From Acidobacterium sp. S8 (GTDB taxonomy: Bacteria > Acidobacteriota > Terriglobia > Terriglobales > Acidobacteriaceae), in assembly GCF_009765985.1 (NCBI RefSeq), contig NZ_LMUM01000015.1, forward strand, positions 124,001-188,000: 64,000 nt of DNA, written 5' to 3'. The translations under genes and the position numbers were made by a program. Of the stretch, positions 10,004 to 28,600 are shown in pieces. Position 1 is the stretch's first letter, and the number at the start of each line of letters is the position of its first letter. A model generated the notes under the pieces. That model saw only the letters and a program-made list of their open reading frames with translations, was not told where the DNA came from and did not search any database.

Positions 10004-10035
10004 CAAAAAGCGGCGCACCCTAAAAGGTACGCCGC
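10004..10035 (-). terminator. Rho-independent terminator of the inositol-3-phosphate synthase gene
   Basis: On the minus strand a stem GCGGCG/CGCCGC is extended by ACC/GGT across one mismatch with a short loop, and a run of Ts follows. It sits about 25 bp after the stop codon at 10058. Confidence 0.75.
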
Positions 10036-10057
10036 AATATTTCCTGTTTAGAAATTC

Positions 10058-11404: not shown

Positions 11405-11556
11405 TCCTTACGTCGTCCTTCTTTCAAATAAAGATGGTTGGCTGTTCAAACTATGTAGTCTCTGCTCCCAAGGCATGCTTTGGCAAATTCCACATCTCAA
11501 ATGGTAATTTCCATGGTGCGAATGGTGAGAGCGTGCAGTAGTTCGATCTGTTTGTT

Positions 11557-12195
11557 CTACACTTCCTCAGGCCGCACGCGGTTCTTCCAGTGGGTCCATA
11601 CAAACCACACCACTCCAATCACAAGCACAATTTCTACCGCCAGATGGAAGCGATGAAATGCAGCTTTAAAGCGTGGATCCGTCTCCCATGCCTGCCCCAG
11701 CTTCATCCCCACATACGCCAGTGCATAGCACCACGGCCAGGATCCTACAAACGTATAAAGGTGGAAGCGTAGCTGCGGCATTTTTGCAATGCCTGCAGGC
11801 AAGGCAATAAAGGTGCGAACCACCGGCAGCAGCCGACCTACGAAAACCGTAATCCCGCCGTAGCGATTGAAAAAGTGCTCTGCGCGATCAAGGTCATGAT
11901 GGTTCAGCAGCACAAAGCGGCCATATTTCTCAATAAACGGCCGTCCACCCAGCGCGCCAATCCAGTAAGCCAGCAGCGATCCGAGATTGCAGCCAAGAGC
12001 GCCCGCCGTCGCTACCCAGATCAGCTTCAATTGGCCCGTATGCACCAGGTAGCCGGAAAACGGCATGATGATCTCCGACGGCAGTGGAATGCACGTCGAT
12101 TCGATCGCCATCAAAAGCGCGATTCCCACATATCCTGAACTGGAAATGGTGGCGATGATAAAAGAGGCGAGAACGGCCAGGATTTTTTCGGTCAT
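11557..12195 (-). CDS. DedA/VTT-domain family membrane protein
   Basis: 212 residues with several membrane helices and the DedA core: AIESTCIPLPSEIIMPFSGYL (the conserved E-x-PxPSE segment), GCNLGSLLAYWIGALGG, and FVGRLLPVVRTFIALPAGIAKM with the conserved F-x-GR-x-P-R motif. DedA proteins are inner-membrane transporters or flippases; some recycle undecaprenyl phosphate (UptA) or phospholipids, others affect proton-motive force. Which of these applies is not visible. The gene ends 150 bp from the inositol-3-phosphate synthase start. It diverges from the ferredoxin relic, which begins 36 bp away. Confidence 0.9.
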   Translation of the reverse strand: MTEKILAVLASFIIATISSSGYVGIALLMAIESTCIPLPSEIIMPFSGYLVHTGQLKLIWVATAGALGCNLGSLLAYWIGALGGRPFIEKYGRFVLLNHHDLDRAEHFFNRYGGITVFVGRLLPVVRTFIALPAGIAKMPQLRFHLYTFVGSWPWCYALAYVGMKLGQAWETDPRFKAAFHRFHLAVEIVLVIGVVWFVWTHWKNRVRPEEV

Positions 12196-12230
12196 TCAGG
12201 TTGAGTATACCTGCCCCGCATCTAATCTCT

Positions 12231-12538
12231 ATGCCCCGACTCCCGAGCCAATGCGAGCCCAGGGGCTGGCGCCGCTCTGCCTATCATCGATCGCACCGGT
12301 GCGACGGCAAACAGGACTGCGTTGCGGTGTGCCCTTTCGATGTCTTTGCCATGCAGCGAATCACCGCGCTCGACCTCTGCCATGCTGCCCGTGCCGCCTC
12401 GCAAAGCACACAAGCTGGTTGGCAAATGGCAGGCATTCACCGTGAAGCCGGAAGCCTGCCACGCCTGCAATCTCTGCGTCGTAGGCCTGCCCCGAAGACG
12501 CCATCCGGCTAGTCAGGATGGGCAACACCCAGGAATAA
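12231..12538 (+). pseudogene. frameshifted two-cluster 4Fe-4S ferredoxin relic
   Basis: The protein of a bacterial-type ferredoxin can be followed only by changing frame several times. MPRLPSQCE is read in the first frame, then GAALPIIDRT in the second. CDGKQDCVAVCPFDVFAMQ (first Cys cluster) returns to the first frame. KWQAFTVKPEACHACNLCVV (second cluster) is again in the second frame, and CPEDAIRLVRMGNTQE with a stop is in the third. Each junction needs a one-base change. The cluster cysteines and the C-terminal CPEDAIRL are otherwise intact, so decay is recent or the changes are sequencing errors. It lies between divergent dedA and nth. Confidence 0.75.
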
Positions 12539-12605
12539 GTTTTCGTCTACTACTTTATTTTGGCTGGCCTTAACGAGATCCATCGCTTTCCTGTAAAACA
12601 TCCCT

Positions 12606-13385
12606 ATGCCCGTTAAGAAAGCCGCGCCTCTTAAGCCTGCAAAACAATCCAATATGAACGCAGCTCTCGCCAAGTCTGCGGGCAAATCTCTTGCGAAATC
12701 CCCTACGGAAGCCAAAGAACATTTCGACCCGAAGCGCGACCTCGATCCTGCCCGCGTCGCGGAAATCCTGAAGATTCTCGCTGCTACCTACCCCAATGCC
12801 GAGTGCGCCCTGCACCACCGCAACGCCTGGGAATTGCTCGTCGCGACCATCCTTTCCGCGCAATGCACCGATGTCCGCGTCAACATCGTCACGCCCGAAC
12901 TTTTCCGCCAGTTCCCCACACCGAAAGCCATGTCGGAGGCCTCGCTCCCGGCCATCGAAGAGCTCATTCGCTCGACAGGCTTTTATCGCAATAAGGCGAA
13001 ATCCATCCTTGGAGCAGCGAAAAAGATCACCGAAGAATTCAAGGGCAAGGTCCCGTGCACTCTCGCCGAGCTGACCACCGTTCCCGGAGCCGCCCGCAAG
13101 ACAGCCAATGTTGTTTTAGGGGTCGCCTATGGCCTCGCCGAGGGCGTTGTAGTGGACACGCACGTCCTGCGCATCTCGCGCCGCCTGCACCTGACACAGG
13201 CCACCGAGCCCAAACAAGTCGAGCAGGATTTAATGAAGATTATTCCCAAGGACCACTGGATTGCCTACTCGCACGAAATCATCCATCACGGCCGCCAGGT
13301 CTGCATCGCCCGCAAACCGAAATGCGTGGAATGCCCACTTGAAAAGGTCTGCAACTCAGCCGACAAGACGTGGTCAAGCCACTAG
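12606..13385 (+). CDS. nth: endonuclease III (DNA glycosylase/AP lyase)
   Basis: 259 residues. Endonuclease III removes oxidised pyrimidines and cleaves the abasic strand in base excision repair. The core runs from AWELLVATILSAQCTD through the helix-hairpin-helix VPGAARKTANVVLG, which keeps the catalytic Lys in RKTANV, and DTHVLRISRRL with the catalytic Asp. The C-terminal [4Fe-4S] motif is complete with spacing C-x6-C-x2-C-x5-C (CIARKPKCVECPLEKVC). The hairpin reads GAA where the family usually has GVG. About 45 Lys/Ala-rich residues precede the catalytic core, an N-terminal extension over E. coli Nth (211 aa). No clear ribosome-binding site is seen for the ATG at 12606. Confidence 0.95.
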   Translation: MPVKKAAPLKPAKQSNMNAALAKSAGKSLAKSPTEAKEHFDPKRDLDPARVAEILKILAATYPNAECALHHRNAWELLVATILSAQCTDVRVNIVTPELFRQFPTPKAMSEASLPAIEELIRSTGFYRNKAKSILGAAKKITEEFKGKVPCTLAELTTVPGAARKTANVVLGVAYGLAEGVVVDTHVLRISRRLHLTQATEPKQVEQDLMKIIPKDHWIAYSHEIIHHGRQVCIARKPKCVECPLEKVCNSADKTWSSH

Positions 13386-13414
13386 CCTGCACCAACGTGG
13401 CAAGTAGGTAGAAG

Positions 13415-13465
13415 CACCGGGCTTTAGCCCGGTGAATATAGCAGGAATGAAACGGGCTTCAGCCC
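13415..13465. repeat. REP-like pair of intergenic hairpins
   Basis: A perfect 8-bp stem CACCGGGC/GCCCGGTG with loop TTTA (13415-13434) is followed 19 bp later by a shorter hairpin GGGC/GCCC with loop TTCA (13454-13465). The two share the core GGGCTTyAGCCC. The pair lies between the convergent nth and 13475-13978 genes, where it could also act as a bidirectional transcription barrier. Confidence 0.6.
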
Positions 13466-13474
13466 TGGTTCAAA

Positions 13475-13978
13475 TCAGTGCGGCTGCGCGCTGTCGTCCG
13501 AAGGCTTCGGAGCCTCATCCTCGCCGCCGCGCTGCGAATCATTGTGCTTCTCGTAGATCGAATACTGGTGTCCAGGAGGCAGCATCTTCACCGCAATCTC
13601 CTTCGTCGTCGTGTCCGCCACGTAATCGGCGCCATATGTCTGGAAGCCATGCGCAATAATCTGCAGCCGGACCGTATCGCCAACCGGAATCACATCCAGC
13701 TCAGCCTTGCCCTCTTCGTTCGTCTTCAACTCCATGTTGCCGCCGTCTTTACCATCTTTATCGATAGGGTGAAAGACCACGCCGGCATTCTCTACCGGCT
13801 TGCCCGTCGAGCCCTTCGTCACAATCACGGTAATCTTGCAGGTTGGCGGAGGCGGCGTATATTTACGCCCGCGCTTTTCCGTCTGCGCTGAAAGCAGAAG
13901 CGGAACAGCAATAAAAAGACCTAACGACGATACAGCAACACGGCGCAGCATAGAACCCGGAGAAATCAAAGAAGCCAT
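13475..13978 (-). CDS. secreted protein with carboxypeptidase-regulatory-like (transthyretin-type) domain
   Basis: 167 residues. The N terminus MLRRVAVSSLGLFIAVPLLLSAQ is a signal peptide, probably used from an ATG at or close to 13978. Residues about 45-135 form one beta-sandwich of the carboxypeptidase regulatory-like type: ITVIVTKGSTGKPVENAGVV, then TNEEGKAELDVIPVGDTVRL and IIAHGFQTYG. The C-terminal 30 residues are charged and disordered. Such small exported domains are frequent in Acidobacteria and are thought to bind other surface proteins or glycans; no enzymatic residues are present. Confidence 0.75.
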   Translation of the reverse strand: MASLISPGSMLRRVAVSSLGLFIAVPLLLSAQTEKRGRKYTPPPPTCKITVIVTKGSTGKPVENAGVVFHPIDKDGKDGGNMELKTNEEGKAELDVIPVGDTVRLQIIAHGFQTYGADYVADTTTKEIAVKMLPPGHQYSIYEKHNDSQRGGEDEAPKPSDDSAQPH

Positions 13979-14043
13979 TCCTCGATTGTAAGCAAATCTC
14001 AGGTTTCGAGGAAACAGGGAGAATTCACTCTCCCCGACACTCG

Positions 14044-16521
14044 TTATTTCATTTCCTTGCCCAGTGCAAGCCGAAGCCCGATGCGCACGTTATACGGCAG
14101 CGACGGATATCCAATCGGCCCAGTATGCTGATTGCTCGTCGCATTTTCCATCTGCCCGTATATTCCCAGCCAGCGGTTTACCTGGTAGACCCCGCCAAGA
14201 TCGAGCTTGGTAAATCCGTAATCGAGATTCCGGTTCGGCAGCAGCAGCGAATTGCCAAAGTTGGCATCGCTGTTGCCCAGAAACGTCGAGTCATCGCTGC
14301 CGCTTGAAAACGCGGCATTGCCCACCACCGTCCACTGCTTTCCGGTATAGGTCCCCGTAATAAATCCCGTATGCGGAGGCCGATGAAATGGTCGCGCTCC
14401 CCGCAACGGCGAGTACACGCCGATCGGAATATTTGCAAAATTGGAATCCGTATTGTAGGTCGGCCCAACAGCATCGGAAGTAAACGACTGCTGCACTACC
14501 GAATCAAGATAGGTATAGCCGCCACGAAAGAAGATGCTCTTGCCAAGCCCGTATTGCACTTCGCTCTCAAATCCCTGTGCGCGAAACGCCAGAGAATTGA
14601 GCGTCGGATTGAAGTACGAGGCCTGCAGCAGCCCCAGCAACTCCTGCTGCTCATCCGGCGAAAGATTCGGCAGCAGCTGTACTGCCTGGTTGCTCGGAAC
14701 TGTCTCGATCTGGTTGCCGAATTCATTATGGAAATAAGTCACCCGAAACAGCAGACGCTCGCTGAAAAAACTCTGTTCAACACCGCCGTCGTAGCTGCGC
14801 GAGCGCTCCGCGCCAATCGGTTGAATTCCATATTGCGCAACCGCCTGCTGCCCGCCGTACTGGTAAAGAAAGTCATAGAGCGAGCTGAACTGATCGTTCA
14901 GATTCGGCTCCTTGACGCCCTTCGCAAAGTTGAATATCAGCTTCGTCCCGCGAAAATGCCCCGCGCCCGGGCGCACCACGTAATATGACAATCCAACACG
15001 CGGCGTTCCTTCCGTTCCGTAGAGCTGGTTCTTCTCAATCCCGCCGCCAAGCGAGTAAAACACCCGGTTCCAGAAGTCGCCGCCCACCTGCAGCATGTAG
15101 TCGTAATTGCTGCGCTCCAGGGTGTCGTTCGTGTAGCCCGGATAGCGATCCGCGCCGCGCTCGTTCTCATAGCGGAAACCGGCAATCGCCAGCAGGTGCG
15201 GCGTGAACTGGTAATCCGTCTGCCCATAAATGTTGTCGCGGTTCGACACCAGCTCCGACACAATCGGATACGTCACGCCATAGTTGTCATAGTTCAGAAT
15301 GGCTTGCCCGCTAACCGAATATCCATTCCCGCCCTTGATCGTGACCGGCAGGCCAAGATAAATCCCGTCGTCTACATCATGAATACCCGTAGGCGACCAC
15401 TGCGCATACTGCTCACGCTTCCGCGCCAGTCCATAGCGCGCCAGCCCATGCCATCGATCGGAGAAGTTATGATCGATCGAGCCCGCGAGAAAAATATTCT
15501 GGTTCGACTGCTTCGCATCATTAGCAATCTGGTAGAAGTCGTACGCGTTCGGCGATCCCGTTGCAATATCGGCGTTGCGCGCGCTTACGCGAAGCGTCGT
15601 TGCCGAAGACCACGCATAGCCCAGGTTCGCGGTCTCCACGATGTTGTGGTATTCGCTGCTTGGAATCGAGTTCTTCGTCTGCAAATCGTTGAAGCCGCCG
15701 TAGTAATCGAAGCTGCGATGCGTGCCGCCAAGCTGCACCTGGTTGCGATACGTCCCGAAATTCCCCGCGTCGCCCTCATACAGCAGCGATGGAAACGGCG
15801 TCGATCCACGCGGCGTACTGAAGCTGACCACACCCGCCGCGGCATCCGATCCATACAGAACGCTGTTCGGCCCGCGATACGCCTCCACATTCGATACGCC
15901 GGTCGTTGCAATCGTGGACAAGTCAAACGTTCCGCCCACATCTTCAATCGGCACACCATCGAAAAGAATCTTGTTCGCGTCCGAGTTTCCGCCGCGCACA
16001 AAGACGCTCGCCAAGCCGCCGCGCTGCCCCGTCTGCACCACGTTAGTGCCGGGCACCTGTCGCATCGCATCCACCAGATCGGTGCGATTGATAAAGTCTG
16101 TCTTCGTGAGATTAGTAATCGACGCGCTCAATTGCCCCTGCGGCAGCGGTGTTCCCGTAGCCGTCACAACAACCGACTGGCGCACCCACTCCGGCTCAAG
16201 CACAATGTTCTGATCTACTCCGTCCAGCGCCCCGCCATAAAAGCTCTGCGTCGCAAGTTGACGAAAAGAATCGCCGCCCGCAAGGACGTAAAAACGTCCT
16301 GAGGCCGCGCTGGAAAGCTGATAGGTGCCGTCATTCTGAGTCCTGGAGGCAACAACCACCTTGCCATCCTGAATCAGGGAGATATTCGCACTGGCAATAG
16401 GTCGTCCGAGCGAATCGGTCACGCGGCCTCGAACCACTACGGCATGAATGGGAGCACTGGCAAACAACAGGCAAGCAGAAAACAGGGCAATGCGGCTCAC
16501 TGGCCGCTTTTTCTTACTCAT
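14044..16521 (-). CDS. TonB-dependent receptor, probably for cobalamin/corrinoids
   Basis: 825 residues from the ATG at 16521, preceded by GGAGGATCT; longer readings run into the riboswitch and are rejected. A signal peptide (ISRIALFS-like, ending near IHA) is followed by a carboxypeptidase-regulatory-like domain (VVVRGRVTDSLGRPIASANI), a TonB plug (DLVDAMRQVPGTNVV, GGLASVFVRGGNSDANKILFDGVPIEDVGG, short phrases of which are diagnostic) and a beta-barrel of about 600 residues. The plug phrase VFVRGGNSD is BtuB-like. The assignment to corrinoid uptake rests mainly on the cobalamin riboswitch directly upstream. It acts in the outer membrane with TonB-ExbBD, which are not in the window. Confidence 0.88.
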   Translation of the reverse strand: MSKKKRPVSRIALFSACLLFASAPIHAVVVRGRVTDSLGRPIASANISLIQDGKVVVASRTQNDGTYQLSSAASGRFYVLAGGDSFRQLATQSFYGGALDGVDQNIVLEPEWVRQSVVVTATGTPLPQGQLSASITNLTKTDFINRTDLVDAMRQVPGTNVVQTGQRGGLASVFVRGGNSDANKILFDGVPIEDVGGTFDLSTIATTGVSNVEAYRGPNSVLYGSDAAAGVVSFSTPRGSTPFPSLLYEGDAGNFGTYRNQVQLGGTHRSFDYYGGFNDLQTKNSIPSSEYHNIVETANLGYAWSSATTLRVSARNADIATGSPNAYDFYQIANDAKQSNQNIFLAGSIDHNFSDRWHGLARYGLARKREQYAQWSPTGIHDVDDGIYLGLPVTIKGGNGYSVSGQAILNYDNYGVTYPIVSELVSNRDNIYGQTDYQFTPHLLAIAGFRYENERGADRYPGYTNDTLERSNYDYMLQVGGDFWNRVFYSLGGGIEKNQLYGTEGTPRVGLSYYVVRPGAGHFRGTKLIFNFAKGVKEPNLNDQFSSLYDFLYQYGGQQAVAQYGIQPIGAERSRSYDGGVEQSFFSERLLFRVTYFHNEFGNQIETVPSNQAVQLLPNLSPDEQQELLGLLQASYFNPTLNSLAFRAQGFESEVQYGLGKSIFFRGGYTYLDSVVQQSFTSDAVGPTYNTDSNFANIPIGVYSPLRGARPFHRPPHTGFITGTYTGKQWTVVGNAAFSSGSDDSTFLGNSDANFGNSLLLPNRNLDYGFTKLDLGGVYQVNRWLGIYGQMENATSNQHTGPIGYPSLPYNVRIGLRLALGKEMK

Positions 16522-16565
16522 AGATCCTCCGTCCCCCTCGGAACGCGGTTGGTCGACTTCATAGC

Positions 16566-16745
16566 AGTGAGACCGGTCTCCTGACTTGCGCGCTGCCCGG
16601 CCGCCTTCCCGGATCTCTCCAGTGGCCTTCAGGTCTGGCATGCACTGCGCATCTTCTGAAATGACAGACGCGCAGTATCGCGCTTACAGTTGCGGGGCAG
16701 TGACGGATTCCCACCGTCTTCCCGAGCATCTCCTGCGTTGAACGT
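16566..16745 (-). promoter_or_regulatory. cobalamin (AdoCbl) riboswitch
   Basis: Read on the minus strand, the leader contains the conserved blocks of the class in order: GGGAAGACGGTGGGAATCC, then CACTGCCCCGCAACTGTAAG, CCACTGG, and finally AAGTCAGGAGACC near the 3' end (the B12-box-like element). The 3' boundary is about 45 bp before the TonB receptor start, so binding of cobalamin is expected to reduce expression of that gene. Boundaries are approximate. Confidence 0.93.
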
Positions 16746-16795
16746 TCTAATAGTTATGCGGAAATGCAGCCAGCAATCCGCATGCAGTCAAAAAA

Positions 16796-16922
16796 TGGTG
16801 ACTCCGGGAGGATTTGAACTTCCGACCTGCGGTTAAGGAAACCGTCCTAGGTCACTTCGCATAGAATAGCAGAGCTCTGCATGGAGTCACTATGCGGCTT
16901 GTTTTAAGTCTCTCACCGCGAA
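16796..16922 (-). repeat. attachment-site-like repeat A with 3' half of a tRNA (CCT anticodon loop)
   Basis: On the minus strand this carries an anticodon arm (CGGT stem, CCT in the loop), variable loop, a T-arm GGAAG-TTCAAAT-CTTCC-like and the acceptor end up to CGGAGTCACC, but no matching 5' acceptor or D-arm upstream. It is therefore not a functional tRNA. It is about 80% identical over its length to 21346-21472 in the same orientation. Similarity continues past the tRNA part to about 16922. The 50 bp before it and the 180 bp after it (to 17104) hold nothing I recognise. Confidence 0.7.
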
Positions 16923-17104
16923 AACTGATTGTTGATCGAAGTTTCTCGACCTGGTCGGCTCGCAGGACAAGAAATGTCCTCGGTCGGGAAAATACTCATT
17001 CTGGTGACATCAGATTGCGTTTGTTTTATCCAAATCATGAAGCGATTTCGAATGAATAAAAGAGAGTAAGCAGTGAGTGCTTCTCAACCTTTACTCCTTC
17101 TTTC

Positions 17105-17560
17105 TTAAGCGTTCTTTGCCAATATCTTCGTAAAATAAAATGTCATCGTCGTCGATCCTGTGTTCACAATCCCGTGCAGCACGTTCGCCTCGGCGTACAT
17201 CATGTCGCCTGCCGTCACCTGCGTCGCGACACTGTCCACTTCGATCTCTCCGGTTCCAGCCGTGACGATCACGAATTCTTCTTCAGGGTGACGGTGAGGC
17301 GGATGCGGCCTGGAGCCAGGCTCAAGCGTCACGACCCCGGTTGCCACCGCTGCCAGTTGCCTTGTGGGACCGTTGAAATGCACTCTCGCTTTGGCTCCGG
17401 GGCTGTTTCCCTCCGTCGAAAGATCTGCACCTTTCACGACCGAACTCTTGAGAGGTGGACCAGTTTGCAGCGTATCGACGTGAGTGATCTGCTGCGGTGC
17501 CTGCATAAAAGCACTGGGAAGTGCAGCACAGTAAGTAAGGAAATCTCTTCGATCTAACAT
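17105..17560 (-). CDS. exported cupin-domain protein
   Basis: 151 residues starting MLDRRDFLTYCAALP, a short Tat/Sec-like leader, with AAGGGG before the ATG. The cupin beta-barrel is shown by motif 1 PHPPHRHPEEEFVIVTAGTGEIE (His-x-His and Glu metal ligands; key residues H, H, E) and motif 2 GDMMYAEANVLHGIVN (His). This arrangement binds a divalent metal in the periplasm. The substrate is unknown; single-domain cupins serve as isomerases, dioxygenases or sugar binders. It is the first gene inside the tRNA-fragment-flanked islet and has no clear operon partner. Confidence 0.8.
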   Translation of the reverse strand: MLDRRDFLTYCAALPSAFMQAPQQITHVDTLQTGPPLKSSVVKGADLSTEGNSPGAKARVHFNGPTRQLAAVATGVVTLEPGSRPHPPHRHPEEEFVIVTAGTGEIEVDSVATQVTAGDMMYAEANVLHGIVNTGSTTMTFYFTKILAKNA

Positions 17561-17606
17561 ATCTGGCCCCTTTTCCTACGAAAATATTGTCAGGCGTCAG
17601 AAGATA

Positions 17607-17810
17607 TCAATCCAGATCGACGACAGAGAGCGTCACCTGCTTCAGGCCCGTAACCATATTCAGAAGGCTAACACCGGCCGTTTGAAGAGGTGCCTCTATG
17701 AATGAAATTACCACCGCCTTCTCAGCCGTTTCTTCGGCCCCGATGTATGTGACGGCATAAATACCGCCTGTTTTTTCTTGTATAAGCTCATCAAGGCACG
17801 CGCTTTCCAA
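17607..17810 (-). CDS. small ORF of unknown function
   Basis: 67 residues from a TTG codon, opening MESACLDELIQEKTGG and continuing with a plausible alternation of helix and strand (IYAVTYIGAEETAEKAVVISF). I do not recognise it. It lacks a good ribosome-binding site and may be the surviving C-terminal part of an older gene. It lies in the 386-bp space between the cupin gene and the divergent histidine kinase, where nothing else is seen. Confidence 0.3.
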   Translation of the reverse strand: MESACLDELIQEKTGGIYAVTYIGAEETAEKAVVISFIEAPLQTAGVSLLNMVTGLKQVTLSVVDLD

Positions 17811-17946
17811 ATACCGAAAAAGCTGGTGTGCGTTAGCATGTTAGAAACATTGACCGTACCGCGTCGTCGCCGGATTTTAGGATTCGAATCCAGCGAAGCA
17901 AAAGTTAGCCTGCGGCCGAAAACATCAATGCGTATGAGAATGCACG

Positions 17947-19968
17947 ATGGTTGGGCCTGTTAATTTCATGAACGGACAAACGCTCACAGCACGGACCAAA
18001 ACCTTGATTACCGGCGACAGTGAGTTGGCGGGCCGCATACGCGCGTACAAATGGTCGGAAACACCTCTTGGACCGATTGAAGACTGGTCCGAGACGCTGC
18101 TCGCGACCGTGAACCTGATGCTGCATTCGCCATTTCCGACGATTCTGTCGTGGGGACCGGAGATGGTCTTCTTGTACAACGACGCGGCCATTTCTACTTT
18201 GACGGTGAAGCACCCGAGCGCCCTGGGCGGTCTGTATCGAGATGTCTTCCATGAGGCATGGGACCTGGTGAGCGGCGATCTTGAAGCCTGTTTCTATCGC
18301 GGTGAGACGGCCGTACGGGATAACATGTTCATCCCCATCCTCTTTAATGGTGCTCTCGAAGACCATTATTGGAGCTACTCCCTCATCCCGGTTTACGAGA
18401 ATGGCGCAATCGCTGGCGTTTACGACGCCTTTCGCAACACCACCGAAATCGTGATGGGGGCGCGACGTCTTCTCGAAAGCGAAACCCGGCTGAAAATGGC
18501 AACGGAGGTTGCCCGGCTCGGAGTCTTCGCATGGCACCCGGTCGAAGACCGTGTGAATTGGGAAAACGATCTGATCTACGAGATCTTCGGACGGAAACCC
18601 GAGGATGGTCCGATCAATGGCACTATGTTCTTCAACGAGGTCGTCCATCCTGATTGCCGGGAGGCCTTCAGGCGTGCGATAGAGTCGACTTTACAAAACG
18701 GAGAAGCATTCGATTTTGAGGCCATGATCTGTCTACTGGATAGGACGTTTCGTTGGATCGAGGTGAAAGGACACCTTCAATCCAGGACCGAAGGCGGGAC
18801 AGGACAAATTCTCGGTACTGTACGCGATATTACGGAGATCAAGCGAAGCGAGCAGATATTGCGAGAGAACTTCAAACACCTTGGCGAACTCGCAGCCATT
18901 GTCGAATCCTCCGAAGACGTGATTTTGAGCAAGGATCTCAACGGCATCATTACAAGCTGGAATGCTGCAGCCACTCGTCTTTTCGGCTATTCGGCGGAAG
19001 AAATGATTGGAGTCTCGATTCTCAAGCTCATTCCGGCCGATCTTCATTCTGATGAAAAGACAATTATGGAGAGTATTCGTGCCGGATGCCGCATCGAGCA
19101 CTTTGAAACCAAGCGTCTCACGAAGAGCGGTCAGTTGCTCGATGTCTCTCTTACCATCTCTCCGGTAAGAGATGAACACGGCAGGGTGATCGGGGCGTCC
19201 AAGATTTTGCGGGATGTTTCGATGCGCCGGCGGATCGAGCAATCCTTGTTGCAGGCCGAAAAGATTGCAGCGACCGGACGAATGGCGGCGACGATCGCCC
19301 ATGAAATCAACAACCCTCTAGAAGCTGTGATGACTTTGATGTATCTTCTTCGTCCGATGATTGCCGACCCCGTAGGTATCAATTACTTTGAGTCCGTCGA
19401 GACTGAACTCGGGCGTGTCTCGCACATAGCCAAACAAACTCTTGGTTATTACCGCGAACACACAGCCGCAAGCAGCATCTCCCTTTCAGAGATCGCTCTC
19501 CATGCCATCACGATCTATGAGCCGAGGTGCATTGCCAGCGGCATTGAGATTAGAAAAACACTCAATTCATCGAGAAAAATCGTACTGCGTCGCGGAGAGA
19601 TGATGCAGGTCGTTTCAAACCTCATCATGAACTCGATTTACGCCATGCCGGCGGGCGGTGTTTTGTCCATCTCCATCAAGGATACGATGGAGTCTCGAGA
19701 TGGCATCATCCTGACCATTCGGGACAATGGCGCCGGAATAGCGGAGGCTGATCTGCCAAGAGTATTCGAAGCTTTCTTCACCACTCGCAGCACCGTGGGA
19801 ACAGGCATCGGCTTATTTGTCGCGAAGCAGTTTGTTGAAGGCCACGGAGGCCAGATTCAGATTGAAAGCATCCGGGACACAGAAGAGCACGGTACGACCG
19901 TTCGCGTCTTTCTGCCAATATCGACAACCTATGACTCCTCTGGCAATGTTGTCCGCTCCAGGGATTGA
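17947..19968 (+). CDS. multi-PAS sensor histidine kinase
   Basis: 673 residues without membrane helices, hence a cytoplasmic sensor. There are three PAS-type modules: about 30-165 (WSETPLGPIEDWSETLLA), 180-300 with its PAC end GTVRDITEIKRSE, and 310-430 (ESSEDVILSKDLNGIITSWN, ending ILRDVSMRRR). The kinase core follows: H-box AATIAHEINNPLEAV with phospho-acceptor His452, N-box NLIMNSIYA, G1 DNGAGI, F-box VFEAFFTT and G2 GTGIGLFV. It should autophosphorylate and pass phosphate to a response regulator. The only regulator nearby is the decayed one at 20811-21176. Its 3' end overlaps the convergent second kinase by 40 bp. Confidence 0.9.
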   Translation: MVGPVNFMNGQTLTARTKTLITGDSELAGRIRAYKWSETPLGPIEDWSETLLATVNLMLHSPFPTILSWGPEMVFLYNDAAISTLTVKHPSALGGLYRDVFHEAWDLVSGDLEACFYRGETAVRDNMFIPILFNGALEDHYWSYSLIPVYENGAIAGVYDAFRNTTEIVMGARRLLESETRLKMATEVARLGVFAWHPVEDRVNWENDLIYEIFGRKPEDGPINGTMFFNEVVHPDCREAFRRAIESTLQNGEAFDFEAMICLLDRTFRWIEVKGHLQSRTEGGTGQILGTVRDITEIKRSEQILRENFKHLGELAAIVESSEDVILSKDLNGIITSWNAAATRLFGYSAEEMIGVSILKLIPADLHSDEKTIMESIRAGCRIEHFETKRLTKSGQLLDVSLTISPVRDEHGRVIGASKILRDVSMRRRIEQSLLQAEKIAATGRMAATIAHEINNPLEAVMTLMYLLRPMIADPVGINYFESVETELGRVSHIAKQTLGYYREHTAASSISLSEIALHAITIYEPRCIASGIEIRKTLNSSRKIVLRRGEMMQVVSNLIMNSIYAMPAGGVLSISIKDTMESRDGIILTIRDNGAGIAEADLPRVFEAFFTTRSTVGTGIGLFVAKQFVEGHGGQIQIESIRDTEEHGTTVRVFLPISTTYDSSGNVVRSRD

Positions 19969-20705
19969 ACGGGCAGCAAAATACGAAAGACCGTTCCGCT
20001 CCTGCCGAAAACACTGCTGCTCCGATATCGAATTGTTCCACCGTGACCGTGAACGATCTCTTTTACAATCCAGAGACCAAGTCCGTTTCCCTCAGATTTA
20101 TTACTCTTGAAAGAATCGAAGAGCGTCCTGCGCATCGACTCTGGGATCCCAGCTCCATTGTCCGCAATCGTGATGATGGCATTGTATGGATGCGTGACGA
20201 CACGTACATGTAGTTTCCCGGAATGTGGCAACGCCTCGATGGAGTTGAGTAGAAGATTCGTAATCGCCTGGAAGATTTCACCCTTTTTTACGCAGGCCAA
20301 TGCTGCCTCCGAAGACCGCGTCTGAACGTTGATTCTCTTTTTTGCAATCTGCTCGTGATGAAGGCGAAGAGCCGAATTAGCCAGATCGACCAAATCGATC
20401 TCCTTTGCTTCCATATCCAGGCGAATGAAGGAGAGGCTTCTGCCGGTAATCTCGCCAAGACTACGCAATTGACTGTCCGCCTCGTCCAGATAGTCAACGT
20501 TCTGAAGTGGGGACGCGGCAAAGGTCCTAGCCAGAAAGATGAGGTTGGTCAGTGCTGCCAGACGATTATTGACTTCATGCATGGTCGCGCCGACCAGTCT
20601 GCCTGCCATGGCAAGCTGATGGTATCGGCGGAGATTTTCTTCACAGGCTTTGAGCTTTTGACCTTCGTCGTCAAAGGAACCGCGAGGAGGAGAGGCCGAG
20701 TCCAT
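19929..20705 (-). CDS. histidine kinase without recognisable sensor domain
   Basis: 258 residues. A short N-terminal coiled segment (about 14-30) leads into an H-box-like ATMHEVNNRLAALTNLI with His43, in which the usual NP is replaced by NR. The ATPase domain then shows NLLLNSIEALP (N-box), DNGAGIP (G1) and GNGLGLWIVKEIV (G2). There is no PAS, GAF or membrane segment, so input must come from a partner protein. The decayed response regulator lies 105 bp upstream on the same strand, suggesting the two once formed a pair. The 3' end overlaps that of the multi-PAS kinase tail to tail by 40 bp. Confidence 0.85.
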   Translation of the reverse strand: MDSASPPRGSFDDEGQKLKACEENLRRYHQLAMAGRLVGATMHEVNNRLAALTNLIFLARTFAASPLQNVDYLDEADSQLRSLGEITGRSLSFIRLDMEAKEIDLVDLANSALRLHHEQIAKKRINVQTRSSEAALACVKKGEIFQAITNLLLNSIEALPHSGKLHVRVVTHPYNAIITIADNGAGIPESMRRTLFDSFKSNKSEGNGLGLWIVKEIVHGHGGTIRYRSSSVFGRSGTVFRILLPVQSLERTTLPEES

Positions 20706-20810
20706 GTCTATCTGAGGAGAGTGGAGGAATAAAGGTTGGCCCTCGAAATTCGTTTGAGCCTTTACACCCTAAACACGGGTTGTGCCAGACAAATATTCGG
20801 CCCGGCGCAT

Positions 20811-21176
20811 TCAAACTCGGAGCTTTGCCAGAAGGTCTGCGGGGTGGACGGGTTTGGACAGTAGATCGAAGTCGTAACCCTCCGAGCGAGCCTCTTCGAG
20901 AAGGTCTGCGGTTGAAGCCTGCCCAGAAAAGAGCAGGACCTTGCATTCAGGTTGAGTTCTACGGAAATGAATGGCCAACTCAACGCCGGTCATTCCAGGC
21001 ATCATGACATCGCTAATAAGGAGAGCCGAAGTCAGCTCGGCGCTGGCGGCAAGGGCCTTCTCCGGTGATCGAAAGCACTTGCCCGAAAGCCAGCTTGATT
21101 CAGGATGAGGACAAGGGTTTAGGCGATCACCGCTTCATCCCTCTACGATGAAGGCGACACGATTTGTGTCCGGCAC
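20811..21176 (-). pseudogene. decayed response regulator (receiver domain)
   Basis: The C-terminal two thirds are intact: LLISDVMMPGMTGVEL with the phospho-acceptor Asp, VLLFSGQAS, and LLSKPV with the conserved Lys. A GTG at 21176 with AAGGAG upstream opens PDTNRVAFIVE, but a single-base insertion shifts the frame. Beyond it DEAVIA is followed by TAA (one change from CAA) and then TLVLILNQAGFRASAF. A further shift leads back to RSPEKALAAS and the intact part. At least three lesions mean it is no longer a functional regulator, though a 64-residue fragment from 21005 could still be translated. Confidence 0.8.
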
Positions 21177-21345
21177 CTGGTCTCCTTATCTCTGTACCCA
21201 GATCTCTGTATCCAGGATATTCCGTGCGAGATACAGAGCCTATCGGCCATAGGAGACCATGCGGATTTATCGTTTGTTTACAAATATCAAATGACAACTG
21301 CGGTCTTTCGATCAAACCCAAAGGCGGGGTTGAATGATTGATTAT

Positions 21346-21472
21346 ATGGTGACCCCGGGAAGATTCGAACTTCCGACCTGCGGTTTAGGAAACCGTCCAA
21401 GGGCACATGCATAGAGTAGCAGAGTGCCGCATGGTGTCCGTATGTGGCTTATTTTGAGCCTCTTACCTCGAA
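21346..21472 (-). repeat. attachment-site-like repeat B with 3' half of a tRNA (CCT anticodon loop)
   Basis: Second copy of the element at 16796-16922, same orientation. It has the better preserved tRNA part: loop TTCCTAA between CGGT and ACCG, T-arm GGAAG-TTCGAAT-CTTCC, and acceptor end CGGGGTCACC. No 5' half is present. The two copies bracket 4.4 kb. Confidence 0.7.
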
Positions 21473-21518
21473 CGCATTTTGCATGGAGATGCAGGAAATT
21501 GCTCAAAAGTACAATTCA

Positions 21519-21540
21519 AACTGACACCAGAACTGACACC
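21519..21540 (+). repeat. tandem decamer AACTGACACC, period 12
   Basis: Two perfect AACTGACACC copies separated by AG, 47 bp outside repeat B. Short direct repeats at this distance resemble integrase arm-type binding sites. The stretch 21541-22019 after it is AT-richer DNA with no gene, RNA or further repeat that I can support. Confidence 0.45.
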
Positions 21541-22019
21541 AACTTTTCCGTCGGGCCTGCGGTTTTTAAGTTTTTGGATAACATCGTAGTCTATGATAAA
21601 TGAGCTTAAGCCAGCTTGACCCCAAGTTCACGTCCACCAGACATTTATCGTGATGAAGCATAATTTGGCCAAACTAATGTCTGTACCTAAAATTTGTGCC
21701 CGAAATCGGTGCGGTTTACATTCGTCTAGTGCTGCAATTGCAGTATGAAGCTACTGCAATCTAGCATTAATCTCCATAAATCGACTTCGGAGAAGCTATT
21801 TCTCCACTAGCAAACTGTCGCAGATCACCTGAAGAAACCGCTCACAAACTAGCCCCTACTATATCTGCGAATGGAAGCACTACCGAGCTTATCTAGCCTA
21901 ATAGACGGATGCGAGCGTGAACTTTCTCCACGGCTAACCAAGGTATTTCTAATTGATCTCTTGACCCGCTGCTGGGTGAGGGGCGGTCAAAAAAGCACTT
22001 TATAGTCCTCAACCCTGGA

Positions 22020-22332: not shown

Positions 22333-25300
22333 CTAGTCCATATATCCAATTTTCTTCAGCTGATCATCCCAATCAGATGGAAGCGCTACGGCTTCTCCCT
22401 TTGGCAGGGTGCCGGCATATTGAATGAGATTGAGAAGCATCCGATCCGCCACAGGATGCTGATCAATGTGCTCGAGCATAGGAAAGCTGTTCACGATAAA
22501 CGCGCCTGCATGGAACGAATATTTGCCCAGTAGGACCCCAGATGCATAACCACCCGGCGCGGTATATCCTGCTGCGAACGCAGCAGCTATTACTTCGTCT
22601 GGCGTATCCTGACCGTCAAATACGTAGCTCGGCAGAACCGATCCAAAATAATACCAATCGAGGATGCCATTGGCTTCGATTCCTTCAAAGACCGGATGTG
22701 GTTTCGCTACACACTCCTTGTGATAAAGAAAGTCGCTAAATTTATAGATGCGGCCCTTCTTCGTCAGAGGAAGCCAAGCCGCATTCTCTTTTTCGCGAGC
22801 GAATGCCAGTGGGGACAAGAAGATTACAGTAGATCCGGTCGCGATATCTCTGGCTAGAGATGTCCATTGACTCGCTGTAGATTGATTTTGCGGAATATCG
22901 CCAACAAGAATGACTTTATGTTTTTGCAGTGGCGCAGCACTCGTAAAGGAAACGGAAGCTACACCGTGTGCGTTGAGCCATGTCTCCACATCGCGCGGAA
23001 TTCCCAACGTGACAACATCCTGGTGCAAATGCGGCAGCGATGCGGGATCCGAGATATAGAACCGGCATGATGTCTCTGGCGGAGCAACTCCCTTCTGTAT
23101 CGAGGGAATGAGCTTATAGCTGCCAGCCGGGCCGTGTATGGTAGCGCTTTCTTTCATCACAGGTATGGCAAGCGGTGGATTTTCCGCCGCCTTGTCAGGG
23201 ATGGAGATTACCGCCTGTTTGTCCCATGCCATTCCTTTCGGGCCCCACACTCTGAATGTCGCACTGTAATTGCCCGCCTGCAGCACGTCTTCGTTGGCGA
23301 GCACAGCTTCCAGCGTTATCGGACGGCCAGCGTAGGTATGGGTTGGCTCTACAAATAGACACCAGCGCACTGGTGCCCATCCATCTCGCATCACATCGAA
23401 TATGCCGGGCTTCCAGTCTCTCCAGAAACGCCAGACGCCTTCTCCGACCAGTGCATGATCGAGCATTCCGGTCAAATTGAAACCACAGATGTTAGGGTTA
23501 GAGCGAATCAGATTGAATCCCAATAAACGATGTTGCCCCATCTTCTTCTGGCTCATCTCCAACAACGTTTCTGGATAGGGGTAAACGACGTCCATGCCAA
23601 AACGAGACCAATCGGCAGTAAAGTGGTCGGCCATGTACCGCACCAGAACGAAATCCTCAGCATCTTCGGGAATGTCCGCCTGCTCATACATTCGGAGCTC
23701 GTGAATGACATTCATCATGCTTCCGATTCCATATTCGGAAAGAAACACCGGCTTGCTGCCTTTACCCAGATCCCGCATCATCTGGTTGGTTTCCTGTGTT
23801 TGCGGAACATTCGGATAAAGGTGAAAGTCTCCGGAACCTAATCCGGAGGGATATTTCATCGCGACGGAGGCCATCCCGGCCTCTTCTTTTCCCCACACAT
23901 ATTCCCAGGATGAGCTGTCCGGGTTGCTTGTCGAGCCGATGTCAAGGTGCCCGTCGAACCGTCCGCTCGAGAGAAGAACAAGACGCGTCGAGTCCAGTGA
24001 GCGGACGAGCGGCAGCGCACCCACGGCTTCGCGAAACACCGGACCGTCTTCCGTCTCATTTAATAAACCCCATATGGTAAGACTGGGATGGTTGCGATCG
24101 CGAATGATCATTTCGCGCACAGAGTTTTCATAGCGCCGTTTCATTTGCGGTGAATCTTTAAGCAGCCAGCTTCCCTGGGATTCTTCATAGACCATGAGTC
24201 CCAACTCGTCGCATAAATCAAGTTGATAGGGATAGGCGACGCCGGCTAAAAAGCGAACGGTATTAAATCCTGATGCCTTGGCATACAACAGATCACGTCT
24301 GAGAAGGTCCGTGTAGCCATCCGGCGGAATCACCACTCCAAATGGCACATGGTTTCCCCCATGTGTACAGCGTAGAAACAAGCGTTTGCCGTTCAGGTGA
24401 AAATAGCCATTTACCAAACGAAAATCTCGAAAGCCGAAAGCTGTTGTGATTGCATGAGACCCCTCTAACGCATCGGATTCAATCCGCAGATGAAGACGGT
24501 ATAGCCAAGGATTGTCAAGATCCCAAAGCTGATGTTTCTTGATGCTCATTTCATGATGAGCAATGGTCGTTCCCGTCGGAACATCCAGCGTGATCGTATC
24601 GATGGAGTCGGCATCGCCCAGAACATCCTGCGTTACGGTAAAGTGGAGCCGCGCGGAGACCGGCTTACTGGATTCATTCGTTACCTCTGCCTCGAGCCGG
24701 ATGTCTCCTGTCTTCCAATCTGCCCTCACATAAATATCGGACAGGTGGAACGCCGGCACGAAAAGAAGCTCCACCGATGCAATGATGCCGCCGTAGTCAA
24801 ATGTCATTCCATTTGAGTAGTTCACGACCTTGTTGTGGTGTGGCGTTTCCAGAAGCAGAATGCCATCAATCGCTGTATCGTCAGGATTCAAAACACGCAC
24901 AGCTAGCCGGTTGCTTTGCTCCGGACGAATAGTTTCCGTTACATCTAATGCAAATGGGGTCTCTCCGCCTTCGTGCATGCCGACGTGTGCTCCATTCAGC
25001 CAGACGTCTGCTAGGTAATCCACGGCATGAAAGCGAAGGAGATACCTTCCTTCTTTCCACGGATTGCGCTGTGGCTCGAACTCAAGCCAATACCAGGCTA
25101 CGCCGTGATATTTAGGATACGACTGCTGAATGATCGACGGAATGCGTGTCGCCTTGGCATTTGCCTGAGGACTTTGGAACCAAGCTGCACTTCTTCCTAC
25201 ATTCTCGGGATCTATAGCCATCGACCAGCCCTCGTCGAGCGGCATGATCAACTCTTGCACTGCGGAAACTCTATTAGCTTGCGCCCCCGTTTTGACAAGT

Positions 25301-25392
25301 GCGGCGGCATCCAACGGATTTAGAAATGGAACTGCTGTGCCAAGTCCTGCACCCAGTTGGCCTGTAATCTTCAAAAACTGCCGACGCTGCAT
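22333..25392 (-). CDS. Tat-exported GH2 family glycoside hydrolase (paralogue a)
   Basis: 1019 residues from the ATG at 25392, preceded by GGAGGTGG. The leader MQRRQFLKITGQLG is a Tat signal, so it is exported folded. The GH2 sugar-binding jelly roll (about 55-220, with DYLADVWLNGAHVG), an Ig-like domain, and a TIM barrel follow. The barrel holds RNHPSLTIWGLLNE (acid/base Glu) and PVFLSEYG (nucleophile Glu). A C-terminal region of about 250 residues (VILVGDIPQ, TVIFLSPLAF, DWYYFGSVLPSYVFDGQDT) resembles a class I glutamine-amidotransferase-like fold of the kind found in some beta-galactosidases. Exact linkage specificity (beta-galactoside, glucuronide or other) is unknown. It is the last gene of the SDR-Ldh2-GH2-GH2 unit. 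Confidence 0.88.
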   Translation of the reverse strand: MQRRQFLKITGQLGAGLGTAVPFLNPLDAAALVKTGAQANRVSAVQELIMPLDEGWSMAIDPENVGRSAAWFQSPQANAKATRIPSIIQQSYPKYHGVAWYWLEFEPQRNPWKEGRYLLRFHAVDYLADVWLNGAHVGMHEGGETPFALDVTETIRPEQSNRLAVRVLNPDDTAIDGILLLETPHHNKVVNYSNGMTFDYGGIIASVELLFVPAFHLSDIYVRADWKTGDIRLEAEVTNESSKPVSARLHFTVTQDVLGDADSIDTITLDVPTGTTIAHHEMSIKKHQLWDLDNPWLYRLHLRIESDALEGSHAITTAFGFRDFRLVNGYFHLNGKRLFLRCTHGGNHVPFGVVIPPDGYTDLLRRDLLYAKASGFNTVRFLAGVAYPYQLDLCDELGLMVYEESQGSWLLKDSPQMKRRYENSVREMIIRDRNHPSLTIWGLLNETEDGPVFREAVGALPLVRSLDSTRLVLLSSGRFDGHLDIGSTSNPDSSSWEYVWGKEEAGMASVAMKYPSGLGSGDFHLYPNVPQTQETNQMMRDLGKGSKPVFLSEYGIGSMMNVIHELRMYEQADIPEDAEDFVLVRYMADHFTADWSRFGMDVVYPYPETLLEMSQKKMGQHRLLGFNLIRSNPNICGFNLTGMLDHALVGEGVWRFWRDWKPGIFDVMRDGWAPVRWCLFVEPTHTYAGRPITLEAVLANEDVLQAGNYSATFRVWGPKGMAWDKQAVISIPDKAAENPPLAIPVMKESATIHGPAGSYKLIPSIQKGVAPPETSCRFYISDPASLPHLHQDVVTLGIPRDVETWLNAHGVASVSFTSAAPLQKHKVILVGDIPQNQSTASQWTSLARDIATGSTVIFLSPLAFAREKENAAWLPLTKKGRIYKFSDFLYHKECVAKPHPVFEGIEANGILDWYYFGSVLPSYVFDGQDTPDEVIAAAFAAGYTAPGGYASGVLLGKYSFHAGAFIVNSFPMLEHIDQHPVADRMLLNLIQYAGTLPKGEAVALPSDWDDQLKKIGYMD

Positions 25393-25608
25393 CTTGCCAC
25401 CTCCAAACTTGAATTGCATTACGAATCGAATCCATGGCTCAATACTGCACCCGCGGATCTCCTCGTGCAATAGTCCGCTTCTCTTGGTCCGATTTGTTGC
25501 ACATCCACTGACACAAGTTGAGCCGGGCACGCCACCTGGGACCGTGTGCCGCCAGATAAAGTAGTCCTTGAAGAAACGAGGAAAATTAGCTAATACTCCC
25601 CACAAGCC

Positions 25609-28600
25609 TTAGTCTAAATATCCAATTTCTTTGAGCTTGATATCAAAGTCTGCCGGAAGTGCTGCGGGCTTTACTTGGGACACGGTGTCCGCATAGCGAA
25701 TGAGATTCAGAAGCAGGCGATCCGCTACCGGATGCTTATCGATGTGCTCAAGGACTGGAAAACTGTTCACAACAAACTGGCCCGCACCAAATAAATAAGC
25801 GCCCAGCAGGATCCCGGAGGCATAGCCACCCGGAGTTGAATACCCTGCAGCAAATGCCGCTGCAATCACGTCGTGTGGAGTATCCTGGCCGTCAAATAAA
25901 TAGGAGGGCAGAACCGGTCCGAAATAATACCAATCGAGGATACCGTTGGCTTCCAGTCCTTCAAACACCTGGTGGGGCTTGGCCACACACTCCTTGTGAT
26001 AAAGCCAATCGTGGAATCTATAAACTCTCCCCTTGTTCGCTAGGGGCAGCCATGCCGAAGTCTTTTCATCACGTGCAAATACTAATGGAGAGAGAAAGAT
26101 AACAGTCGATCCGGTCGCCATGTGCTTCGCAAGTGATCTCCACTCACTCGTTGTAGGCTTGCCAGATGGGATGTCCCCCACAAGGATGACATCCCGCTTC
26201 TCAGTCGGCTCACCTGCAAATGGTCTCGCACTGACTCCGTGAGACTTGAGCCAAGTTTCAACGTCATGCGAAACACCAAGCGTCACTATATCTTGCTGTA
26301 AAAACGGCAACGACGTAGGGTCTGAGATATAGAACCGGCATGACGTTTCCGGAGGAGCAACCCCCTTTTTTATTGAAGGGACGAGCTCATATCTTCCGGC
26401 TGGACCATGTATGACAGCCTCTTCTTTCATTACCGGTAGGGCAAACGGGGTATCTTCGGATGTCTTGTCAGGGATGGAGATTACAGCTGGTTTATCCCAG
26501 GCGATCCCGTTTGGCCCCCACACTCGGAATGTTGCAGGATAACTGCCCGCCTGCAGCGCATCTTCGTTGGCGAGAACAGCTTCCAACGTAATCGGGCGCC
26601 CCGCATAGGTATGCATTGGCTCTACAAAAAGGCACCAGCGCACAGGTGCCCATCCATCCCGCATCGCATCGAACATTCCGGGCTTCCAATCGCGCCAGAA
26701 TCGCCAGACGCCCTCTCCGGTCATGGCATGATCGAGCATTCCCGTAAGGTTAAATCCACAAATCTTTGGGTTCGAGCGAATCAGATTGAATCCGAGCAGA
26801 CGATGTTGAGCCATTTTCTTCTGGCTCATCTCCAAGAGTATTTCCGGATAAGGATAAGCTGCATCCATGCCGAAACGGATCCAATCCGCTGAAAGCTTTT
26901 CAGCCATGGATTGCATGAGGACAAAGTCCTCGGCATTTTCAGGAATACCGGCCTGCTCGTACATCCTGAGTTCGTGAATGACGTTCATCATGCTGCCGAT
27001 TCCGTATTCAGAGAGAAAAATCGGCTTGCTGTCTTCACCCAAAGTTCGCATCATCTGGTTCCTTTCCTGGGTCTGCGGAACAGTGGGATAAAGGTGGAAA
27101 TCTCCGGAACCTGATCCGGACGCGAAATAGGCCATAGCAACGTGCCCGGCTCCGGGCTGTTCTTTTCCCCATACGTATTCCCATGTCGAGTTCTTTGGAT
27201 TACTTGCCGAGCCAATCTCAAGATGACCGTCAAATCGCCCACTTGAGAGCAGTACGAGGCGCGTGTCATCCAGAGAACGGACAAGAGGAAGACAAGCCTC
27301 AGCCTCACGAAAGACCGGGCCTTCTCCCGTCTCGTTCAACAATCCCCAAATGGCGACGCTTGGATGATTACGATCGCGCACGATCATTTCGCGCAAGGAG
27401 TCTTCATAGCGTCTCTTCATTTGCGGTGAATCTTTGAGCAGCCAGCTTCCCGACGATTCCTCATAAACAAGCAGGCCAAGTTCATCGCACAAATCAAGTT
27501 GATAGGGTAATGCGACGCCTGATAGGAAACGAATGGCATTAAATCCAGAGGCTTTGGCATACAGCAAATCTCGCCGGAGAAGATCAGCATACCCATCTGG
27601 CGGAATCACCTGTCCAAACGGAACATGGTTTCCAGTGTGTGTGCAGCGTAAGAACCTACGCTTGCCATTCAGGCGAAAATAACCATTGACGAGACGAAAG
27701 TCTCGAAATCCGAATGAGGTTGAAACCTCATGGGTCCCTTCCGCGCCGTCGGAATCGATCCAAAGGTGAAGGCGGTACAGATATGGATCGTCGAGATCCC
27801 AAAGGTGATGATTCTTGATATTCATTTCGTGATGGGCAGCCGTACTCCCAACCGGAGCCTTGAACGCGATGGCATCTGTCGAGTGAGAGTCACCTGTGGC
27901 CTCTGATATCACGGAAAAATGCAGGCCTGCGGAGATCGGCTTCCCAGAATCGTTATGCACAGTCGCCCGGACGCGGAGATTTCCCGTCTGCCAGTCGGGG
28001 CTTACACAAATATCGGACAGATGAAAGGCAGGCACGAAAAGAAGTTCGACCGGCTCGATGATGCCGCCATAGTCGTAAAAGTTTCCGTTCGCGAAGTTTA
28101 CGACCTTGTTGCGATGCGGGGTTTCGGCAAGCATGATACCGTCTATCGGCAGATCGTCGGGATTCAAAACGCGCACTGCGAGCTTGTTGTTCCGGTCAGG
28201 ATGCAGCGTATCCGTTACATCGAATACAAAAGGCGTTTCGCCACCTTCGTGCGTACCTACATGCTTTCCATTCAACCAAACATCGGCCAGGTAATCCACG
28301 GCATGAAAGCGAAGCAGATACCTGCCCCTGGTCCATGGATTGCGCTGTGGTTTGAACTCAAGCCAATACCAGGCCAAACCGTGATACCTGGGGTACGCCT
28401 GCTGAATTGTCGATGGAATGGGCACTTCTTTTGCACTTGGTTGGGCCTGCTGGAACCAGGCGTTGTTTCTGCCAACATTGTCGGGATCGATGCTAATCGA
28501 CCATCCCTCGTTGAGCGGCATTACCAGGCCTCGTGCTACGGAACTTTTGTTCGGGTCATGCGTCCTGGTTGTAGCAAGCGATTCAGAGGCAAATGGTCCG

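Follow-up and report, generated by a model that had tools for sequence, protein, structure and literature searches.

Why does the 3' half of a tRNA gene stand twice, in one orientation, around a small group of signalling genes? The question is raised by contig NZ_LMUM01000015.1 of the soil bacterium Acidobacterium sp. S8, of which we analysed a stretch of 64,000 nt (the window; positions above 64000 are given on the window's scale and lie outside it). The first-pass annotation had described two direct repeats, here named R1 and R2, on either side of a 4.4-kb islet, and had offered two origins for them, insertion into one tRNA gene more than once or movement of an element end. Stacked islands at one tRNA gene are a well-known route of bacterial genome growth. 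Comparison with the genome assembly of the strain (5.44 Mb, 38 contigs; G000) and with a panel of 120 genomes of the family makes it very probable that two site-specific islands accreted in tandem at a tRNA-Arg(CCT) gene: an older 4.4-kb remnant, E1, reaching from R1 to R2, and an 85-kb island, E2, reaching from R2 to the intact tRNA gene. The structure is of a known kind and this case is a fresh example of it. The puzzling pair of repeats would thus be settled as the trace of two successive islands at one tRNA gene, and exact borders are gained for an 85-kb island with integrase, relaxase and sugar-catabolism cargo.

Each repeat joins a displaced tRNA half to an element end

BLASTN within a 116-kb stretch aligned R1 (16795-16922) with R2 (21346-21472) at 83.6% identity over 128 columns (E 3e-33), which rules out a chance repeat; the spacing between the two is 4423 bp. 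Each repeat consists of the 3' half of tRNA-Arg(CCT), comprising the anticodon arm, the T arm, the acceptor 3' strand and CCA, followed by about 75 bp of element end. ARAGORN called no tRNA at R1 or R2, in agreement with the annotated absence of a 5' half. When the R1 region was used as query against the own genome (E <=0.001), three places were found: R1, R2 and the intact tRNA-Arg(CCT) gene (G000:C14:230526-230602, minus strand), which the first-pass annotation had proposed to locate and which lies on the same contig and in the same orientation as the repeats, 85 kb beyond R2. A query based on R2 returned one additional weak match (35 bp, 86%, contig C17). Many copies unrelated to tRNA genes, named beforehand as the observation that would speak against attachment sites, were thus not seen with the R1 query, and the own-genome searches rule out a dispersed repeat.

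The annotated similarity beyond the tRNA part also held. The 80-bp arm of R1 as sole query matched R2 (E 1e-11) and the element end of a congener (E 3e-9), and its local score against R2 was 40, compared to a maximum of 14 in 1000 shuffles; judged by these comparisons, the likeness of the two arms is real. Both repeats read in the order element arm, tRNA from anticodon arm to CCA, outer DNA. This is the look of the far junction of a tRNA island, and R2 would accordingly close E2 while R1 would close the older E1.

E2 extends from R2 to the intact tRNA gene

E2 spans positions 21346-106525, from R2 to the intact tRNA-Arg(CCT) gene. Read on the minus strand, the order is tRNA, tyrosine integrase, a NikA-like protein (24.5 bits, under the Pfam cut-off of 27 bits), a 281-aa protein that matches no Pfam family, TrwC relaxase, cargo, R2, islet, R1, cobalamin riboswitch and btuB-like gene. 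Between the 3' end of the tRNA and the start of the integrase lie 83 or about 100 bp, depending on the start codon, and both ends of E2 carry the same double repeat. E2 therefore shows the marks of a tRNA-targeted island: an intact tRNA gene at one end and a displaced fragment of it in the same orientation at the other, a tyrosine integrase inside, and an empty site in relatives, here of other genera.

The repeats flank the islet as annotated, and as distal junctions of integrated elements they were correctly recognised. They are not the bounds of one complete element, as R2 is the far end of E2 and R1 that of an older element; a single element bounded by R1 and R2 was ruled out, since E1 has no visible integrase and R2 pairs with the intact tRNA gene.

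The empty site in other genera

R1 lies about 30 bp from the cobalamin riboswitch, in the place that tRNA-Arg(CCT) occupies in other genera. The empty site was sought in 28 loci of other genera (L019-L046), returned from matches to the R2 query. An intact tRNA-Arg(CCT) gene is present in 27 of them, and four have a btuB homologue on the tRNA 3' side (G104, G085, G020 and G090, the last two belonging to one genus); with a reach of only about 1.5 kb, the remaining 23 loci are of little informative value. The gap from tRNA to riboswitch is about 140 bp in G104, about 120 bp in G085 and about 0.85 kb in G020 and G090. In G022 the btuB homologue stands on the tRNA 5' side instead (L096). Going by these loci, the order tRNA-Arg(CCT), cobalamin riboswitch, btuB is the ancestral, empty site. 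The riboswitch would then be the ancestral neighbour of the tRNA gene and, as such, the outer chromosomal flank. The name btuB-like is our assumption, based on the riboswitch and not on Pfam, and the listed start of the gene may be too early because it overlaps the riboswitch.

Related elements in congeners and the order of insertion

Two congeners carry elements of the same type at this gene. G001 has both flanks in common with G000, and between them a 26-kb element reaches from the tRNA gene to a distal end that is 81% identical to R2 (240 bp); of the 348 residues of its integrase only about 60-320 are left, both ends being truncated, and its proximal arm is gone. In G002 the tRNA-adjacent integrase is 94% identical to that of E2, and the distal end, located on another contig, is 91% identical to R2 (235 bp). 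No match to the repeats was found in G003. Just inside the G002 island we also observed a second, truncated integrase fragment (L016, 8847-9011; 49% over 55 aa) and a variant double repeat, each half of which has one mismatch (L016, 9064-9085); the two are perhaps a further accretion layer.

The following course of events would produce the present arrangement. The integrase would act on an element attachment site (attP) bearing a copy of the tRNA 3' half and recombine it with tRNA-Arg(CCT) in the region of the anticodon loop, and each insertion would rebuild the tRNA at one end and leave the old 3' half with an element arm at the other. The older E1 would have entered first, which placed R1 beside the btuB riboswitch; its relative E2 would have entered later, at the same gene or at the attachment site of E1, giving rise to R2. 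Loss of the integrase, of the tRNA-proximal arm and of the outer distal arm would have reduced E1 to a 4.4-kb relic that retains a cupin gene and two kinase genes and resembles a cis-mobilizable element (CIME). Repeated insertion at one tRNA gene, the first of the two annotated origins, is supported by the intact tRNA gene and integrase 85 kb on, the empty junction in other genera and the same-type elements in congeners.

The degree of divergence bears on how R1 arose. The arms of R1 and R2 are identical in 60 of 80 columns and the tRNA halves in 48 of 52. With divergence so much greater in the arms than in the tRNA halves, it is probable that E1 and E2 were distinct elements before they arrived, and movement of an element end, the second annotated origin, is not needed. 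The same divergence rules out a recent duplication of one end. More generally, R1 could stem from a duplication of the end of E2, or of all of E2, with later deletion, instead of an independent older insertion; the like layout of the repeats and their homologous arms would fit this. We regard it as very unlikely in view of the contrast between arms and tRNA halves, and because the R2 arm is nearer to that of G002 (64 of 77 columns) than to that of R1, the divergence between R1 and R2 being about as large as that between R2 and the element of another species, G001 (56 of 77).

It is extremely improbable that the region from R1 to the tRNA gene was once a single island, with R2 as a secondary crossover site inside it. 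The tRNA-adjacent integrase is indeed the only one recognised in the scanned stretches, as a single island would have it. However, R2 possesses a full distal arm with double repeat like the element ends in G001 and G002, and its tRNA half is unmutated, as expected of a site made at the tRNA gene.

Several observations weigh against tandem accretion. No empty site was found within the genus (4 genomes including G000). In G001, 3.7 kb separate the attachment site at the distal end from the riboswitch, and no second tRNA half was found there. The 200 bp of E1 proximal to the tRNA scored 9 against those of E2 (shuffled mean 8.8), compared to 159 for G002 as positive control and 9 for G001, in which the proximal arm is deleted; without such likeness, the inner end of E1 is recognised by its tRNA half only. 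Conservation of the R1 arm ends after about 77 bp, so that the DNA now adjoining R1 may not be original E1 content. Finally, the two kinase genes and the cupin gene were never found side by side elsewhere in the matches examined, and the own identity of E1 is unproven.

E1 is probably a fossil

The enclosed genes were annotated as a cupin gene, two histidine kinase genes (HK1 and HK2) and a decayed response regulator gene without an integrase. The Pfam matches and an in-frame stop bear out this content, and no integrase was seen among the islet open reading frames (ORFs) of at least 80 aa. Integration and transfer genes are absent from E1 according to the ORF list and the Pfam matches of the islet proteins, as in a CIME. 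Copies of the tRNA core flank E1 on both sides, while the outer arm with double repeat at R1 and the proximal arm of E1 are not recognisable, and no double repeat was found in the proximal end. We interpret E1 as probably an inert, CIME-like fossil because of the changes in the R1 tRNA half, the eroded arms, the missing double repeat and the in-frame stop in the response regulator gene.

Alternatively, the islet could be a live CIME or a satellite, a passive cassette with two usable ends that the integrase of its neighbour mobilises in trans or in cis. The tRNA core kept at both islet ends and the lack of a visible own integrase would suit such a cassette, and mobilisation after accretion is described for CIMEs in a review (PMC5704250). 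Nevertheless, this is unlikely: the R1 core is altered at four places, one of them in the anticodon loop, the outer arm that bears the double repeat is missing from R1 (33 of 87 outer columns identical to R2, compared to 64 of 87 between R2 and G001 and 79 of 88 between R2 and G002), and the response regulator gene is broken. A fossil E1 is thus preferred.

Regarding the source of the islet genes, 50 plasmid records matched islet DNA, none with 80% coverage; the best were plasmids of Granulicella tundricola and Acidisarcina polymorpha, and the annotated plasmid rows among the five listed concern kinase genes only. HK1 has relatives at six loci among genome contigs. The four nearest have no cupin match and neither a tRNA nor a tRNA half, and their HK2 matches reach only 29-31% and fall on the HK1 relative itself. 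HK2 was found at E 1e-50 in 3 of the 120 family genomes. Islet DNA matched 14 of the 120, including the own genome, and the matches outside it span single genes. The GC content of the islet (50-54% in bins 17001-21000) differs weakly from that of the flank (52-58% in bins 10001-16000).

Comparison with known systems

The closest parallel is the tandem accretion of CIMEs with integrative and mobilizable elements (IMEs) or integrative and conjugative elements (ICEs). In the review (PMC5704250), a three-step scheme is given, integration, decay to a CIME and arrival of another element at the shared attachment site, with reference to the ICESt1-related elements of Streptococcus; as here, a decayed element without integrase and transfer genes but with attachment-type flanks stands in tandem with an integrase and relaxase element at one target gene. 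E1 and E2 differ from these systems in host group, integrase and target, which is tRNA-Arg(CCT) here, and the ends of E1 look too eroded to act. Islands in the Islander collection are likewise marked by an intact tRNA gene and a displaced tDNA fragment, with a crossover centred on the anticodon, and 125 tandems of two or more are listed (PMC4383910). Islander demands an integrase for each tandem member, so that E1, in which none is seen, would be missed (PMC4383910). No paper naming the present element was found in our partial coverage of the literature.

The tRNA-Arg(CCT) gene may be used repeatedly in other genomes. Eleven genomes with 20 loci were inspected, nearly all of them picked for having more than one match, and in 8 of these chosen genomes at least one 3'-half match (10 fragments in all) lies outside an ARAGORN tRNA gene, counts that do not give a family rate. 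At an identity of at least 88%, six 3'-half fragments remain in five genomes. In G036 (91%), G106 (83%) and G039 (80%) the 3'-half match lies 1 to 3.4 kb beyond the intact gene; these are perhaps other small islets or remnants at tRNA-Arg(CCT).

The integrase subfamily and its arm repeat

The double repeat AACTGACACCnnAACTGACACC occurs at 12 sites in 8 of the 120 family genomes, and the pattern read backwards occurs at none in control columns; three of the 12 sites (two in G000, one in G001) are the source of the motif. Five sites adjoin an intact tRNA gene and an integrase of the E2 subfamily (as listed, Arg at L132, Met at L129 and L133, Lys at L131 and L134), two adjoin a tRNA-Arg 3' half (L124, L125) and five an apparent tRNA 5' half (L126, L127, L128, L130, L135). 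Two of these 5' halves were verified, and three (Leu twice, Sec) were assigned by eye, L128 being the weakest. In G088 the tRNA-Lys 5' half shares with the intact gene 40 identical bases ending in the anticodon loop region, and the tRNA-Met 5' half shares 32 identical bases and, after a one-base gap, continues through the anticodon arm. Among 22 integrase loci, 11 have the double repeat with up to 4 mismatches (4 exact, 7 with 1-4 mismatches) and it was not found in the other 11; in L059, one of the seven, it does not stand beside the integrase. In part of one integrase subfamily the double repeat AACTGACACCnnAACTGACACC likely represents the arm-type sites, and some islands of that subfamily can be searched for simply by this string.

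Together with L134, which was found via the repeat, 23 integrase loci were available, 18 of them with a tRNA in the fetched flank. The integrase lies on the tRNA 5' side in nine (L049, L050, L053, L058, L060, L061, L064, L066, L134; tRNAs Met, Leu, Asp, Arg, Ser and Lys), with its C-terminal end facing the tRNA in all nine, and on the 3' side in the other nine. In contrast, a 5' fragment is reported for 159 of 3919 Islander islands (PMC4383910). The integrase tree is rooted at its midpoint, with five branches open and one long row (L052). On it the side label requires 2 changes, compared to a shuffled mean of 6.2-6.3, a value as low being reached in 1 of 500 shuffles for the 5' label and in none for the 3' label. 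By this measure the side label follows the tree.

Tentatively, and with somewhat more doubt than confidence, we propose that the integrase behind R1 and R2 belongs to an anticodon-loop integrase subfamily of this bacterial family, part of which has in common two copies of AACTGACACC at a distance of 12 bp, and that this subfamily has changed its tRNA (Arg, Met, Leu, Lys, Asp, Ser, perhaps Sec) as well as its entry side. If so, the 5'-side members would replace the tRNA 5' half and the promoter, and element DNA would drive an essential tRNA gene. Against a switch of side, the position of an integrase beside a tRNA gene is no proof of the borders of its element, verified displaced 5' halves come from one genome only (G088), and integrases within one clade do not count as independent cases. 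Since 5'-side members are so frequent here, side switching by integrases at tRNA genes becomes a testable question.

Features of the locus and cargo of E2

Table 1. Positions of the features discussed (window scale, except for the last three rows)
Feature	Position	Strand	Basis or remark
TonB-dependent receptor gene, btuB-like, flank	14044-16641	-	ORF; region 76% DNA identity in congener G001
Cobalamin riboswitch before btuB	16553-16766	-	Rfam RF00174, 73.4 bits
R1 tRNA half, displaced 3' half of tRNA-Arg(CCT)	16795-16846	-	4 changes in 52 columns against intact gene
R1 element-end arm, inner part only	16847-16922		Homologues: R2 arm, element ends of two congeners
Cupin-domain protein, E1 cargo	17105-17560	-	Pfam PF07883, 2e-18
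PAS-domain sensor histidine kinase HK1, E1 cargo	17947-19968	+	Pfam PAS, HATPase_c
Histidine kinase HK2, E1 cargo	19929-20705	-	Pfam HATPase_c, 4e-23
Decayed response regulator, E1	20823-21134	-	PF00072, 2.1e-11, profile positions 28-108 of 111; receiver domain behind in-frame stop
E2, part inside the window	21346-64000		Continues to 106525
R2 tRNA half, displaced 3' half of tRNA-Arg(CCT)	21346-21397	-	0 changes in 52 columns against intact gene
R2 element-end arm of E2	21398-21571		Repeat and arm: 91% to G002 (235 bp), 81% to G001 (240 bp)
Double repeat AACTGACACCAGAACTGACACCA at the distal end of E2, putative arm-type sites for integrase binding	21519-21541	+	Other copy at 106459-106480
TrwC relaxase of E2	100331-103135 (outside window)	-	Pfam, 2e-78
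Tyrosine integrase of E2	105378-106442 (outside window)	-	PF00589, 5e-35; 354-aa ORF
Intact tRNA-Arg(CCT)	106526-106602 (outside window)	-	ARAGORN, own-genome match
3'-half match and intact gene, G036	L105 1572-1616 and 4446-4522
3'-half match and intact gene, G106	L110 1568-1609 and 2678-2754
3'-half match and intact gene, G039	L113 1054-1099 and 4483-4559

Matches to VirB4-type PF03135 in the own genome were confined to contigs C24 and C29, with none on the contig of E2; other families of the type IV secretion system (T4SS) were not searched. Because of this distribution, E2 looks mobilizable rather than self-transmissible. It resembles IMEs with a TrwC-type relaxase, which we take to be MOBF, in combining an integrase with a TrwC relaxase while no PF03135 match lies on its contig; unlike them, it has a large sugar-catabolism cargo. 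The own genome holds 10 TrwC matches, including that of E2 itself and fragments, the best two others being 78% and 70% identical. Further TrwC relaxases, 50-78% identical to that of E2, were observed at G000:C4:207233-210031, C20:29034-31811, C24:16029-18704 and C3:129905-131740; they perhaps belong to several related mobilizable elements or plasmids, C24 being also a contig with a VirB4-type match.

The Pfam scan covered 23 ORFs of E2, a part of its ORFs, 19 of them cargo. Among these 19 are enzymes of the GH2, melibiase and fucosidase types, an enolase-superfamily enzyme, a KDPG-type aldolase and a carbohydrate kinase, together with outer-membrane beta-barrel proteins, a RhaT-type transporter and a GntR regulator, so the scanned cargo reads as a set for sugar uptake and catabolism. 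The other scanned ORFs include a P450, a GDSL lipase, a PIN protein, a GH15 enzyme and a GMC oxidoreductase. Inspection of the ORF list by eye further showed, at window positions 22333-28674 and from 61757 onward, several GH2-type genes that resemble one another as well as sugar transporter and dehydrogenase genes in paired copies, as if cargo had been doubled.

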